A DNA stretch of 64,000 bases from Planctomycetota bacterium (GTDB lineage Bacteria; Planctomycetota; Planctomycetia; Pirellulales; UBA7805): contig QQVP01000119.1 in the NCBI GenBank assembly GCA_003389215.1, positions 248,001 to 312,000 on the forward strand, read 5' to 3'. The notes under the pieces are model-generated. The model was not told the DNA's origin. It searched no databases and saw nothing but the letters and a program-made list of their open reading frames with translations. Below are positions 41,370 to 51,016 of the stretch, in pieces (position 1 is the stretch's first letter; each line of letters begins with the position of its first letter). Both the position numbers and the translations under genes were made by a program.

Positions 41370-41434
41370 TTAAACGGGACAGGTCTAATTTCGGACGCGT
41401 GTTCGGTTCGCGAAATTAGACCTGTCCCGTTTAA
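41370..41434. repeat. Orphan RAYT-family palindrome (22-bp arms, 21-nt loop)
   Basis: Perfect inverted arms at 41370-41391 and 41413-41434 have the same sequence (TTAAACGGGACAGGTCTAAT and two more T) as the palindromes flanking the RAYT gene at 49-50 kb, but the loop is 21 nt instead of 4. It lies between proS and the DUF4416 gene and could act as a terminator. It looks like a REP/REPIN-type repeat. Confidence 0.85.
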
Positions 41435-45687: not shown

Positions 45688-47532
45688 ATGAGTTCCCTGC
45701 GGTTCTCCTGCGCCATGGTCGCCCTTCTCGTGGGCCTCGGCTTCGTCTCGCCGGTCGCGCTGCGCGCCGCGCCGCTCGAGCTGCCCCGCGACGCCGCGAC
45801 CCGTCCGCAACTGCAGAGCATCTACTCCGAGTTCCACGACGTCACCGAGCTGGTCGATGACGAGACCCGCGCCGTCGTGTTCTGCTTCCTGGGCATCGAC
45901 TGTCCCGTCGCTCAGCAGTACCTGCCCCGGCTCAAGGAGATGAGCCATCGGTATCACGACCGCGGGGTTCGCTTCTATGGCGTCTATCCGAACCAGCGGG
46001 CGCACGTGATGCGGATGGCCACCCACGCCCACGACCAGGACATTTCCTTTCCGGTGTTTCGCGACGAAGGGCAGCGGCTCGTCAAGTGGCTTGGTGCCGG
46101 CGTCACGCCCGAGGTCGTGGTGCTCGACGCCCGCTGGGAGAAGAAGTACCAGGGCGCCATCGACGACCAGTTCAAGAAGCGCGGTCGACGTCGCGTGGTC
46201 AACGAACACTTCCTGGCCGATGCGCTGGAGAGCGTCCTCGCCAAGCAGCCGGTCGCGGTCGCCTATCGACCACCGTCGGGTTGTCCCATCGAATCGGCCG
46301 GACGTCGCCCGCCGCAGCAGAACTTGACGTTTTATCGCGACGTGGCCCCGCTGCTGCAGAAACACTGCCAGTCGTGTCACCGTGATGGGGGTGTCGGTCC
46401 TTTCGAGCTGGCGACCTTCGACGACGCCTACGACAGCGCCGAGCGAATTCAGATGGTCGTCGAAGAGCGACGGATGCCGCCCTGGCACGGCTATCTGAAT
46501 CCGAAATTCGGCGAGCTCAATAACGACAAGCGGATGACTCGCGAAGAGATCCGCACGATCGTCGACTGGATTCGCACCGGAGCGGCCGAAGGCGACGCCG
46601 CCGAGGCTCCCCAGCCGATCGCCTGGCCGGCGGCCGATGCGTGGGAGATTGGCGAGCCCGACTATGTCTACCGCATTCCGCCCTTCCGTGTGCCGAAGCA
46701 CGGCATTCTCGACTACCAGTTCTTCCGGGTGCGGCTCGACTTTGCCGAGGACCGCTGGTTTCGCGCCGTTCAGGTGAAGCCCGGTAGCACCGACGTGGTG
46801 CATCACATCGGCTTGCACATCGTGCCGGCCAATGAGAAGGAGTTCACCGGCTTTGCCGGCATGGCCGAGCTGTACGGGCTCAACGCCGAAGGGGCGATCC
46901 TGATCAACGACTATGTGCCGGGCGACACCTACAACGCCAAGGTCTACCCGGCCGAGCAGGCGGTGCGGATTCCCAAGAACTCCGATCTGATCTTCGAGCT
47001 GCATTACACGCCCAACAATCGCGAAGCGGTGACCGATCGCTCGATGGTCGGCTTTGTGTGGGCGGACGCGGCCCCGGCCGAAGAGGTCTTCACGGCCGTC
47101 TATCGCAAGCCGATCGGGCGGTTTCGCATTCCCCCGCACGCGACCCACCACGTGATGCACGACACGTACTACTTCCGCCACGACGTCCTGGTTGATGCCA
47201 TCCGGCCGCACTTCCACCTGCGGGCCAAGTCGTTCCGGCTGGAGATGGTGACTCGCGACGAGCTTTCCGGCGAGATTGCCGACCGGCAAACGATCTTGAC
47301 CGTGCCCGTCTGGGATCCCGACTGGCAGCGGACCTACGAACTGAAGACGCCGCTGAAGATTCTGGCCGGCACCGAGCTGTTGGCCACGGCGGTGTTTGAC
47401 AACTCGCACTTCAATCCCAACAACCCGGACCCTGCCCAGGAGGTCGAGTGGGGACAGCAAACCGAGGACGAGATGTTCAGCGTGCGTTTCAAGTATCGCC
47501 GCGCCGAAACCTCGCCCGAGAACCCCCGGTAG
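45688..47532 (+). CDS. Exported redoxin - cytochrome c - copper monooxygenase-like fusion
   Basis: The 614-residue product has a signal peptide (AMVALLVGLGFVSPVALRAA), a thioredoxin-like domain (about 35-195; Cys72 in FLGIDCPVAQQYLPRL, a single peroxidatic-type cysteine), one haem-binding motif CQSCH (Cys227-His231, planctomycete cytochrome type, followed by GGVGPFELATFDDA), and a C-terminal domain like copper type II ascorbate-dependent monooxygenases (peptidylglycine hydroxylase fold) with paired His372-His373 (VVHHIGLHIV) and His508-x-His510 (IRPHFHLRAKSF). Oxygen-dependent hydroxylation in the periplasm is an inference. The next gene starts 13 bp after its stop. Confidence 0.87.
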   Translation: MSSLRFSCAMVALLVGLGFVSPVALRAAPLELPRDAATRPQLQSIYSEFHDVTELVDDETRAVVFCFLGIDCPVAQQYLPRLKEMSHRYHDRGVRFYGVYPNQRAHVMRMATHAHDQDISFPVFRDEGQRLVKWLGAGVTPEVVVLDARWEKKYQGAIDDQFKKRGRRRVVNEHFLADALESVLAKQPVAVAYRPPSGCPIESAGRRPPQQNLTFYRDVAPLLQKHCQSCHRDGGVGPFELATFDDAYDSAERIQMVVEERRMPPWHGYLNPKFGELNNDKRMTREEIRTIVDWIRTGAAEGDAAEAPQPIAWPAADAWEIGEPDYVYRIPPFRVPKHGILDYQFFRVRLDFAEDRWFRAVQVKPGSTDVVHHIGLHIVPANEKEFTGFAGMAELYGLNAEGAILINDYVPGDTYNAKVYPAEQAVRIPKNSDLIFELHYTPNNREAVTDRSMVGFVWADAAPAEEVFTAVYRKPIGRFRIPPHATHHVMHDTYYFRHDVLVDAIRPHFHLRAKSFRLEMVTRDELSGEIADRQTILTVPVWDPDWQRTYELKTPLKILAGTELLATAVFDNSHFNPNNPDPAQEVEWGQQTEDEMFSVRFKYRRAETSPENPR

Positions 47533-47545
47533 GAGGCAACCTGCC

Positions 47546-49426
47546 ATGTTCCGACTTGCCCGACTTCTCGCCCTTGCCGCCGTGTGGACGCTGTTGCCGG
47601 CCGCCATCGTGCAGGCCGAGACGGCGCTTGACCAACAGATCTCGCACTATCGCGAACTGCTCCGCCGCGGTACGAATCTGCAGCCGCTCGGGGCCCGCGA
47701 ACTGGCCGCCAGCCGCCGCTCGCTGCTGGTGGCGACCGGTCGGCTGGAAAGCTACCTGAGTCGGGCGGGTACCGACGCCGCCACGGCCTGGAAGCACGAC
47801 CTGCAGTGGCCCGCCATGCGCGCGACGCTCGAGCGCGAGCAGCCCGACCTGGCGGTGCTCAAGTCGGCCCGCATGCGTTACTTCCGCAACGTGCCGGGCT
47901 TGGAAGAGCCGGCCTTCGTGACGCTGCGGTCCCGCCTCGATGACTTCCTCATCCGCACCCGCTACGCCGAAGCGGCACTCGCCCAGCAGGATTCGCAGCG
48001 GCTGCTCGAAGAGTTCGCCCTGCGTCTGGCCCGTTATGAACGTCACCCCACCCGCGACGACGCCCTCGCCATCGGCCAAACACTGACCTTTCTGGAGCTT
48101 TCCGGCAGCGCCTCGGACGAGTTGCTCGACACGCTCCGCGCCCGCTTCGATCACCCCAACGGCTTCCTGCGGGTGAGCAACCGACTGATCGGCTCGATGC
48201 TGCGCCGCGTGATCGACGACGTGCGGCCGTTCAACCGGCGTTCGGGACGAATCACCACGCGGGGTACGGCACGCACCACGGGCGACGTCTACCTGCAACC
48301 GGTGCCCTCGACGGCCGACGCGGCCTTCGACATTCGGCTGATCGGCACGATTCGCTCGCCCGACATGGTTTCGCGTCAGCGCAACGTGGTGGTGCGCAGC
48401 ACCTGCGTCACCCAGGTCGACGCCCGCAAACGGGTTCGCGTTACCAACGGCGGCATCACCTTCGAGTCGGCCACGGCCAACTGTCGCAGTCGGTTGGAGA
48501 TCGTCGACGTCGACGCCCCGCGTCGTTTCGTCGAGCGACTTGCATCCCGTCGGGCCAACCGTCAGATCTCCCAGTACGAGGCGGAAACCGAAGGCATCGC
48601 CCGCCGCGAGATCTCCGGCCAGCTCGACACGGAGGTCGACGTGCCGATCAAAGAGGCCAACAACGTCTTCAACAATCACTTTCGCGTGCCGAGTATCCGT
48701 TTCGGCGCCTGGCCCAAGCAGATGGATTTCTACAGTCGCTTCGACCACGTGGGGGCCAACGTTCACATCGCCGGCACCGGCCGCATTGGCGCGCCACAGC
48801 CGCGGCTGCCCGACGCCGACGAATTCGACCTGGGACTGCTGTTTCACGAATCGTTCCTCGACAACTACTGTGCCGCGATGTTTGCCGGACGGACGATCGT
48901 CGACCGCCAGTGGGCCAACCTGGTCAGCATCATGACCGGTCGCGAGCCGCGGTCGTTGTGGGTCCACGACCGCACGCCCAGCTGGTCGATCACGTTTCAC
49001 GAGTTGCGTCCGCTGGAAGTCGACTTCGACGACGACCGCTTTACGATTTCGATTCGCACCCAGGCGGCCACGCGGGGCGAAGAGCTGCTCGATCGTCCGG
49101 TGCTGCTGGCGGCGACCTATCGGGTCGAGCTGGGACGCGACGGCGCGGTGCTCGTCCGCGAAGGCGATCTGACCGCACAGTTCGACGACGGCTTGGACTC
49201 GGCGTCGGCGGAAGCGGCGGCGGCGTCGGAAGGGACGAGTCTCGAGCAGGAGATGCTCGCCATGCTGGCCTACAAGTTCAACGGGGTGCTGCAACCGGAG
49301 ATGCACTTCGACGGCCTGGTGCCGCCGGCGGGCGGTTCGCTGGGCCGACTCCGCGAGATCGAGATGCAGGCCTTCCGCGCCCGCGAGGGCTGGCTCACGC
49401 TGGGCTTCCGGCTGCGCGGGGATTAA
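47546..49426 (+). CDS. Conserved exported protein of unknown function (626 aa)
   Basis: I do not recognise a family. The product has a signal peptide (FRLARLLALAAVWTLLPAAI, cleavage near VQAE), an alpha-helical part to about residue 230 (ETALDQQISHYRELLRRGTN), then a beta-rich part with DVYLQPVPSTADAAFDIRL, RNVVVRSTCVTQVDARKRV and EADDFDLGLLFHE-type segments. TAGGAGG stands 6 nt before the ATG. It overlaps nothing and follows the redoxin fusion by 13 bp, so it is almost surely co-transcribed with it. The stop codon TAA lies inside the left palindrome flanking the RAYT gene, which can also serve as the terminator. Confidence 0.85.
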   Translation: MFRLARLLALAAVWTLLPAAIVQAETALDQQISHYRELLRRGTNLQPLGARELAASRRSLLVATGRLESYLSRAGTDAATAWKHDLQWPAMRATLEREQPDLAVLKSARMRYFRNVPGLEEPAFVTLRSRLDDFLIRTRYAEAALAQQDSQRLLEEFALRLARYERHPTRDDALAIGQTLTFLELSGSASDELLDTLRARFDHPNGFLRVSNRLIGSMLRRVIDDVRPFNRRSGRITTRGTARTTGDVYLQPVPSTADAAFDIRLIGTIRSPDMVSRQRNVVVRSTCVTQVDARKRVRVTNGGITFESATANCRSRLEIVDVDAPRRFVERLASRRANRQISQYEAETEGIARREISGQLDTEVDVPIKEANNVFNNHFRVPSIRFGAWPKQMDFYSRFDHVGANVHIAGTGRIGAPQPRLPDADEFDLGLLFHESFLDNYCAAMFAGRTIVDRQWANLVSIMTGREPRSLWVHDRTPSWSITFHELRPLEVDFDDDRFTISIRTQAATRGEELLDRPVLLAATYRVELGRDGAVLVREGDLTAQFDDGLDSASAEAAAASEGTSLEQEMLAMLAYKFNGVLQPEMHFDGLVPPAGGSLGRLREIEMQAFRAREGWLTLGFRLRGD

Positions 49427-49472
49427 ACGGGACAGGTCTAATTTATCGCTAAATTAGACCTGTCCCGTTTAA
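49423..49472. repeat. RAYT-flanking palindrome, left copy (23-bp arms, 4-nt loop)
   Basis: Arms 49423-49445 and 49450-49472 are perfect complements around the loop TCGC. It contains the stop codons of both the 47546-49426 gene and the RAYT gene, so it may also serve as a bidirectional terminator. Confidence 0.9.
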
Positions 49473-50140
49473 TGAAGGCGTGGTCGGCCTCGGCGACGCA
49501 AGGTGGATTCCAGGCCGAGTCGTTGTGCTGTCTTCTTGGTCCACGCTTCACTGCCATAAGGTTGGCCGCGGGCGAGACAATTTCGCAGGGCCTGTAACTC
49601 TGCCTCGGTCTGCGGTTTGTTCACATAATCAAGCCAGTTTCTTGGTTTCGGCACGGGCCAGTCGCCGAGTATCTTGCGCTGCGAGGTCGTCCCGTGTATG
49701 CGACGCCACAGGCTTGACCATCTCCACTCTTCGGACTTTGAGACCAGATTAGCGCGCAACGCGTTACGTTCGACGTAGCGTACCGCTTGATAGAAATACT
49801 CGTCTGTCTCGATCGGAAACGATTTGTACCGGCCCTGATAGACGTGGCCCATGCCAACTCGTTGACGATGTTCTTGCCAGTTTCGGACGTGCGTCACACT
49901 GAGTTTCTGCATGAACGCGGCCATGTCGCCATCGTTCTCGGGCCACAGCACGAAATGCCAGTGATTTGGCATGATCAAGTATGCGCATATGCGAATCGGG
50001 CAGCTCTCCAGGGTCTTCTCCATAATCTCTTCGAAAGCCTGGTAGTCACGATCCTTGCGAAATAGGCGCATTTGACCGACGCCACGATTCAGTACGTGGA
50101 ATAGCATTCCGCCGGGCGCAATTCGGGCAGTGCGGGGCAT
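49469..50140 (-). CDS. REP-associated tyrosine transposase (RAYT, Y1_Tnp)
   Basis: The 223-residue product is a Y1-type HUH nuclease. Its start PRTARIAPGGMLFHVLNRGV is typical; the HUH motif is NHWHFVLWP (about residues 57-65), the next block is KLSVTHVRNWQ, and the catalytic tyrosine is in the region ESDEYFYQAVRYVERNALRA (TDEYFYQAVRYVERNA). KRVGMGHVYQGRYKSF-like sequence (VGMGHVYQGRYKSFP) is also characteristic. It lies between two copies of a 22-23-bp-armed palindrome that it probably recognises. The Arg-rich C-terminus (RRRGRPRLH) fits DNA binding. Length is normal, so it may be active. It differs from IS200/IS605 by lacking a TnpB partner. Confidence 0.92.
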   Translation of the reverse strand: MPRTARIAPGGMLFHVLNRGVGQMRLFRKDRDYQAFEEIMEKTLESCPIRICAYLIMPNHWHFVLWPENDGDMAAFMQKLSVTHVRNWQEHRQRVGMGHVYQGRYKSFPIETDEYFYQAVRYVERNALRANLVSKSEEWRWSSLWRRIHGTTSQRKILGDWPVPKPRNWLDYVNKPQTEAELQALRNCLARGQPYGSEAWTKKTAQRLGLESTLRRRGRPRLH

Positions 50141-50208
50141 CGTGAACGTAGCCTACCAAGGTGCGGCCCAAGAAGAAACGCAAAGCCTGTCGAAACTCGA
50201 CAACGAAT

Positions 50209-50256
50209 TAAACGGGACAGGTCTAATTTATCCGTAAATTAGACCTGTCCCGTTTA
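50209..50256. repeat. RAYT-flanking palindrome, right copy (22-bp arms, 4-nt loop)
   Basis: Arms 50209-50230 and 50235-50256 are perfect complements around the loop TCCG. The same arms occur at 49423-49472 and 41370-41434. Confidence 0.9.
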
Positions 50257-50263
50257 TTGCCCG

Positions 50264-51016
50264 CTACCCCGCGTCGATCTCGGCCATTGCCTCATCCGGC
50301 AAATTGAAATTGGCCGACACGTTTTGCACGTCGTCGTGGTCGTCGAGCCGCTCCATCAGCTTGAGCACCTTCTTGCCGGTCGCCGCGTCGAGATCGACCG
50401 TATTCGTCGGAATCCGCGTGACCTCCTTCATCTCCGCCTCGATATCGGCCGCTTCGAGCGCCTCGACCACGTCGCCGTAGACGTCGACCTCGCAGGTCAG
50501 TTGCAGCTTGTCCCCTTCGCGGGTCACGTCGTCGGCGCCGTGCTCCAGGGCCAACTCGACGAGCGTGTCTTCGTCGACCGCCTCGGGCGCGAACAGGAAC
50601 AGACCCTTCCGCTCGAACATCCAGGCCACGCAGCCGGTGCCGCCGAGCTTGCCGTCGCAGACCTCGAAGATCTTGCGAATCTCGGGTGCCGTGCGGTTGC
50701 GGTTGTCGGTCAAAATCTCGCAGAAGACGGCCACCCCGCCCGCCCCGTAACCCTCGTAGACGATCTCTTCGAGATTGCCGCCCTCGAGCTCGCCCGTGCC
50801 CTTCTTGATCGCCCGTTCGATGGTGTCCTTGGGCATGCGGGCCGCCTTGGCGTCGGCCACCGCCAGCCGTAGCCGCGGGTTCTGGTTGGGGTCGCCACCG
50901 CCGAGCTTGGCCGCCACGATGATCGCCTTCGAGCACTTGCTCCAGACCTTGCCGCGCTTGTTGTCGATGAGGGCCTTCTTGTGCTTGATCCCGGCCCAGT
51001 GGGAATGACCTGCCAT
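50264..51016 (-). CDS. yebC: YebC/PmpR family DNA-binding transcriptional regulator / translation factor
   Basis: The 250-residue product has the family opening AGHSHWAGIKHKKALIDNKR (the usual W-N-I is W-A-G-I here), then WSKCSKAIIVAAKLGGGDPN, RMPKDTIERAIKKGTGE, the YEGYGAGGVAVFCEILTDNR region and GCVAWMFERKGLF. YebC proteins regulate genes and, in recent work, help ribosomes at proline stretches. The ATG at 51016 was taken where conservation begins. The right RAYT palindrome ends 7 bp beyond its stop and could be its terminator. Identity is secure. Confidence 0.94.
   Translation of the reverse strand: MAGHSHWAGIKHKKALIDNKRGKVWSKCSKAIIVAAKLGGGDPNQNPRLRLAVADAKAARMPKDTIERAIKKGTGELEGGNLEEIVYEGYGAGGVAVFCEILTDNRNRTAPEIRKIFEVCDGKLGGTGCVAWMFERKGLFLFAPEAVDEDTLVELALEHGADDVTREGDKLQLTCEVDVYGDVVEALEAADIEAEMKEVTRIPTNTVDLDAATGKKVLKLMERLDDHDDVQNVSANFNLPDEAMAEIDAG

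Follow-up and report, generated by a model that had tools for sequence, protein, structure and literature searches.

A planctomycete Y1 transposase gene bracketed by palindromes that appear to be dimers of its family's terminal inverted repeats

REPINs are among the commonest repeats of bacterial chromosomes. RAYTs are mostly portrayed as domesticated genes that are present in one copy and stay in place, and the insertion sequences of the IS200/IS605 group end in subterminal hairpins and lack terminal inverted repeats (TIRs). Di Nocera et al. (2013; PMC3733652) described TIRtrons, the transposase of which is called TIRYT. According to that paper, their TIRs share the motif GGGGWSAS, form dimers and are in some cases self-complementary, and the transposase genes showed 'no obvious correlation' with the families of repeats. 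In a classification published in 2018 (PMC6006769), TIRYT corresponds to subclass 2.1 of TnpAY1, and no REP-like sequences are reported near its genes.

The locus described here lies in a 64,000-nucleotide stretch of planctomycete DNA (the window, by which we mean that whole stretch) and can be compared with each of these systems. As in the TIRtrons of PMC3733652, a Y1 HUH gene lies between inverted repeats, which resemble the GGGGWSAS motif and may overlap the end of the gene, and the repeats are scattered as single units, dimers or clusters, some TIRs being self-complementary; the flanks carry putative TIRs and not GTAG REPs, and each TIR of the window appears to be a dimer. Different from the TIRtrons, as far as that text portrays them, are the complete TIR dimers with 4-nt loops around the window gene, a clear association of gene and repeat over 98 genomes, and whole elements present in several copies. 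With subclass 2.1 (PMC6006769) the protein shares the greater length of class 2 and a C-terminal extension, whereas the dispersed dimers associated with it set it apart, and no helix-turn-helix (HTH) model of Pfam matched it; its placement there is one of resemblance only. A single gene bracketed by pairs of inverted repeats, dispersed inverted dimers and a fold like that of 4er8 are equally features of REPtrons, with their RAYTs and REPINs (BIMEs). The window differs from these in having neither a GTAG tag nor a stable hairpin of a single REP, in its C-terminal extension and in its probable TIR ancestry. Finally, the HUH-Y1 fold, the multi-copy whole elements of relatives and the absence of an evident target-site duplication around these recall IS200/IS605 elements such as IS608 and ISDra2, from which the family of the window differs by its TIRs of ~20 bp.

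Table 1. Positions of the transposase gene, its neighbours and the repeats. Coordinates are those of the window unless a contig of its genome (G000) is named.
Feature	Position	Strand	Details
Y1/HUH transposase gene (TIRYT/RAYT), 223 aa	49469-50140	-	ORF, Pfam, structure model, catalytic residues
HWH motif, residues 60-62	codons 49963-49955	-	
Catalytic Tyr122	codon 49777-49775	-	
Converging gene, stop codon within palindrome 1	47396-49426	+	
Presumed YebC-family gene, codirectional with the transposase gene	50264-51016	-	
Palindrome 1 (putative head-to-head TIR dimer, downstream of the transposase gene)	49422-49473		arms 49422-49445 and 49450-49473, loop TCGC
Palindrome 2 (putative head-to-head TIR dimer, upstream of the transposase gene)	50209-50256		arms 50209-50230 and 50235-50256, loop TCCG
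Palindrome 3 (similar putative dimer, intergenic gap)	41370-41434		24-bp arms, 17-nt loop
Matching-arm dimers of G000	C1:243875, 289375, 297428, 298213		
Dispersed repeat of ~170-240 bp in G000	contigs C33, C129, C74, C68		loci L024, L028, L027, L025

The product of the transposase gene matches the Pfam family Y1_Tnp with 40.5 bits and the NCBIfam model REP_Tyr_transpos (NF047646) with 64.2 bits, under the cut-off of 80 of the latter. Its HWH motif and Y122 are intact and conserved across the family; the tyrosine motif reads YVERNA, compared with Y---NP in class 2, and relatives have either NA or NP. The AlphaFold2 model (mean pLDDT 91) found its best Foldseek match in 4er8, the structure of TnpAREP in complex with a REP hairpin (E 1.1e-8), followed by the transposases of ISDra2 and IS608. 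By its closest solved fold the protein is RAYT/TnpAREP-like, in agreement with the RAYT named in the preliminary description. The C-terminal third forms a helical extension in the model and has no Pfam match, and no HTH was recognised there by Pfam at E values up to 1. Homologues occur in Planctomycetota, Acidobacteriota, NPL-UPA2 and several Parcubacteria-type candidate groups, and a search of plasmids yielded only distant ones (<60% identity). The genome of the window holds a second, intact RAYT gene (L150, G000:C3:137746-138408; 55% identical), in the flanks of which no TIR was detectable. Homologues of the converging gene align up to 3 residues from its end, and it therefore looks untruncated. 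The gene on the other side is one that we take, from general knowledge of the sequence, to be of the YebC family.

Two nearly identical palindromes stand on either side of the transposase gene (Table 1), as previously noted, and they are real and beyond chance. Their arms are perfect and had been given as 22–23 bp long; this fits the 22-bp pair of palindrome 2, whereas the pair of palindrome 1 is slightly longer at 24 bp. In place of the four differing loop bases reported earlier, the alignment shows 3 differences over 53 bases, of which two are in the loop and one is at an outer base. Folded as single strands, palindromes 1 and 2 reach −25.4 kcal/mol (z −13.4) and −23.7 kcal/mol (z −11.4), respectively, and none of the shuffled sequences folds as well as either; for palindrome 3 the z value is −9.6. 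When up to 3 mismatches are allowed, the window contains six occurrences of the 21-nt arm, where 0.00 would be expected; four of them flank the transposase gene and two make up palindrome 3. Neither palindrome 1 nor palindrome 2 contains a GTAG or CGTC tag. An Rfam search with the palindrome returned only sub-threshold matches to microRNA hairpins, which were taken as chance.

The palindromes had also been placed at gene ends with stop codons, and this is so: palindrome 1 holds the TAA codons of both the converging gene (49424-49426) and the transposase gene (49471-49469), and the end of yebC lies 8 bp from palindrome 2. Such a position, together with the very stable hairpins, would suit transcription terminators or mRNA-stabilising hairpins with an incidental likeness to TIRs. 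We consider this highly improbable as the primary explanation, given that nearly identical arms recur at 12 loci of the genome and are identical to the TIRs of relatives, that no Rfam family exceeded its threshold, and that the terminator-like scores of palindrome 2 are weak and confined to the minus strand. The bidirectional terminator suggested in the preliminary description likewise has little in its favour, since palindrome 1 is not followed by a T-run in either direction. An effect on termination or mRNA stability is possible as a secondary role.

The origin of the arms becomes apparent from the homologues. In 81 full-length homologues with usable flanks, an inverted repeat between the upstream and downstream flanks (score of at least 14) was present in 69 cases and in none of the control windows further out. 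Most of these repeats are single arms (64 of 69) and two are self-complementary TIRs; palindromes on both sides are rare, being found in three of the 81 homologues (the window gene, L258 and L270). In most homologues the start of the upstream arm falls between −50 and −60, and this arm often directly precedes a TTGAC-like promoter element, while the downstream arm overlaps the stop codon or closely follows it. In the nearest homologues (67–75% identity) the TIR is exactly the arm of the window, AAACGGGACAGGTCTAAT. By this comparison each arm of the window appears to be the terminal inverted repeat of its transposase clade, and the palindrome a TIR dimer without a gene, rather than the longer version of an ordinary REP that had been proposed. 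The window's CGGGACAG agrees with the GGGGWSAS motif at seven of eight positions; among the homologues 10 of 38 agree at all eight and 23 of 38 at seven. Some TIR types of the family fold on their own (e.g. −4.8 kcal/mol), whereas a single arm of the window type has no stable fold (0 kcal/mol), which means that in the clade of the window only the dimer offers a hairpin. The homologues from Parcubacteria-type candidate groups (L044–L050, L055 and L056) have TIR types of their own, and several of their single TIRs are small hairpins.

These data bear on the reading, that of the preliminary description, in which the locus is a classical REPtron, in other words an ordinary RAYT with its cognate REPs, only found in a planctomycete and with longer arms. 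A RAYT-like fold with 4er8 as its best match, and repeats that both flank the gene and are dispersed, are what a REPtron would have. A REPtron should, however, carry the GTAG/CGTC tag at the 5' side of a REP hairpin, and the tag is absent here and the single arm does not fold; the NF047646 score is below the cut-off, nearly all relatives have single TIRs and not REPs, and in some of them whole elements are present in multiple copies. We regard a classical REPtron as decidedly unlikely.

In the tree the window gene nests among single-TIR elements (clade supports 97/87 and 98/93), and its dimer-bracketed state is therefore taken to be derived. L258 (G023:C4) and L270 (G029:C82), which have dimers on both sides as well, are distant from the window gene, about half of the residues being different, and among their own closest relatives are single-TIR genes that share their TIR sequence. 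This makes it probable that the dimer-bracketed state arose more than once and that the conversion of TIRtrons to REPtrons is recurrent. Near L270 there is a third dimer, the spacer of which almost matches that of the dimer upstream of the gene. Upstream of the window gene, GACAGG at −51 to −46 lies near the canonical position and was considered as a possible remnant of an original single TIR. It was rejected: the likeness is too weak, and the bases belong to a separate small hairpin.

We then turn to the copies in the genome of the window (5.55 Mb in 135 contigs, 93% complete). The arm has 16 matches with at most one mismatch, and 13 full palindromes of the form CGGGACAG...CTGTCCCG were found. 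They represent 12 loci, contigs C30 and C72 having been merged as one because of their identical 127-bp ends at a dimer; the counts come from pattern searches, which may miss diverged copies, and the true number may exceed 12, as some contigs end at a copy. The preliminary description had named an arm unique to the three sites in the window as an outcome against its reading; the arm is not unique to them, and this check came out in favour of the reading. Four dimers with matching arms (TCTAATTT/AAATTAGA) all lie on contig C1, no more than 55 kb from the transposase gene, the type of which has no second copy in the genome. At the remaining eight loci the two arms are slightly unequal, and almost all of these loci share the loop region CCCCGAAGTATTGG or something very close to it, as if they had been amplified from one master. 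With random placement, the chance of finding both non-flanking C1 copies within 54 kb of the gene is ~4e-4, for a pattern that was noticed post hoc; local spread is a possible cause of the clustering. A dispersed intergenic repeat of ~170–240 bp (ending in ..GGAATCGTTTTTGTAC; Table 1), without an Rfam match, adjoins several of the palindromes.

Two further readings concern the dimers that bracket the gene. If the two dimers and the gene now moved together as one composite element, one would expect the dimers to be nearly identical and their outermost arms to stand in the correct TIR orientation, and both are the case; the only other matching-arm dimers are on this contig too, at distances of ~8 and 54 kb. 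The unit is nevertheless single-copy in the genome, with no duplicate or empty site found, and we think its movement as a composite rather unlikely. It is doubtful, too, that the dimers were made in place from the gene's own TIRs by template switching at the replication fork, and not inserted. Perfect arms with 4-nt loops do fit snap-back copying, but the upstream dimer is located at −67 to −116 and not at the canonical −35 to −55, and dimers with other loops are dispersed elsewhere.

Dispersed dimers are also found in other genomes. In G029, 18 of 20 sampled sites have conserved inverted ends of ~20 bp around a variable middle of ~30 nt, the dimers measuring 71–74 bp in total and lying between unrelated flanks. 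The dimers of G094 are 61 or 82 bp long (AAAGG type) or 91–111 bp (window type), those of G024, G044, G031 and G043 span 48–79 bp, and the shortest are those of the window's genome, with loops down to 4 nt. A REPIN is defined as a pair of inverted units around a spacer that is dispersed as a whole and linked to a RAYT. As judged from their sequences, these dimers have a REPIN-like architecture that appears to be built from TIRs.

In order to relate the repeats to the transposase, 98 genomes were compared, 63 with a homologue and 35 without. The arm of the window occurs in 14 of the 63 and in 0 of the 35 (Fisher p 0.001). Equal abundance in relatives without a RAYT, which the preliminary description had set out as a further outcome against its reading, was therefore not seen, and this check too came out in favour of the reading. 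At least three copies of TIR type GGTGTCAGGAACC are present in 20/63 genomes with a homologue and 0/35 without (p 4e-5), and any copy of type GGGGACGGGAGTC in 29/63 and 5/35 (p 0.001). The Fisher tests treat the genomes as independent, and since the genomes are related the p-values are optimistic. The TIR cores diverge in step with the proteins (Mantel r 0.40, none of 5000 permutations as high). A TIR type is also more numerous where the genome's own RAYT carries that type than in other RAYT-bearing genomes, a comparison somewhat inflated by counting the gene's own arms. In G043, the exact window-type copies are only its own two TIRs. Conversely, G033 and G085 contain 9 and 8 TIR copies of the third type (GGGGACGGGAGTC) with no RAYT detected, for which lost genes or assembly gaps could account. 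Across the 98 genomes the repeats appear clearly linked to their cognate transposase, the dependence on the enzyme being correlational. That TIR types go with their cognate genes revises the statement of no obvious correlation in PMC3733652.

Some relatives retain what seem to be mobile elements. G097 contains five or more copies of a TIR-gene-TIR element of 758 bp, 96–98% identical, and G045 contains two copies with 97.8% identity, in each genome between unrelated flanks. The identity ends at the TIRs, except for 'GAA' on the left and about six bases on the right. Nearly identical whole elements at unrelated sites indicate that TIR-gene-TIR elements move as units. Target-site duplications are not expected from HUH chemistry, and none was evident around these multi-copy elements. 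One paralogous left flank in G097 suggests that the left-hand 'GAA' is part of the target, and no clean empty site was seen among the paralogous left flanks found for the G097 elements. For the window element there was likewise no empty site: the converging gene and yebC are not neighbours in the loci of the 19 relatives examined, and an insertion of the window dimers, as opposed to a loss elsewhere, is accordingly presumed. Two Planctomycetota MAGs, CSMAG_2480 (L037) and CSMAG_2418 (L038), are sister genomes that are 93–96% identical here, and in L037 an intact element seems to be directly preceded, on its upstream side, by a truncated copy, which suggests local re-insertion. A 44-bp repeat, CTGGAAGTGTTGCTGGGGACGTGATTTATGGTGCGATCGCCGTG, in the right flank of L284 has many copies in G097 and G093 (92–100% identity).

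We conclude, with a probability of about 0.85, that the locus belongs to a TIR-associated branch of RAYTs (TIRtron/TIRYT) and is in a derived, REPtron-like state, its dimers being TIR pairs without a gene. This conclusion draws on the TIR and dimer architecture, the dispersal, the association with the gene, the mobility of whole elements in relatives and the nested position of the window gene, all as they appear in the sequences. The ancestral element, of the kind found in most relatives, would have been ~760 bp long and composed of a TIR, the gene and an inverted TIR, with TIRs of ~20 bp around a core GGnGWCAGG; the gene would have started ~55 bp inside, with the second TIR overlapping the stop codon or standing just after it. 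Such an element can move whole, and its enzyme would recognise its own type of TIR. A head-to-head pair of TIRs that lacks the gene would constitute a non-autonomous dimer (REPIN- or MITE-like), and where the DNA is single-stranded, as in the lagging-strand template, this dimer would form a long hairpin. The Y1 enzyme presumably cuts single strands, and by cutting and rejoining the dimer hairpin in trans it would spread dimers to intergenic sites and gene ends. In the window, the single TIRs of the gene itself were presumably replaced by two dimers with 4-nt loops. Compared with PMC6006769 and PMC3733652, and within the open-access literature, the strong link between gene and repeat, the mobility of whole elements and the derived dimer-bracketed state appear to be new.

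In one family, and among related genomes, mobile TIR elements, gene-less dimers and dimer-bracketed genes are found side by side. More tentatively, and at less than even odds, this transposase family may be a surviving transitional form that links autonomous transposons with domesticated RAYT/REPIN systems, in which at least three lineages became dimer-bracketed and from then on only the dimers spread. Since all three states exist within related genomes, the transition can be tested by comparison of close strains. If the proposal is true, REPINs would originate as TIR pairs from which the gene was deleted, and the conversion would be traceable in present-day genomes.
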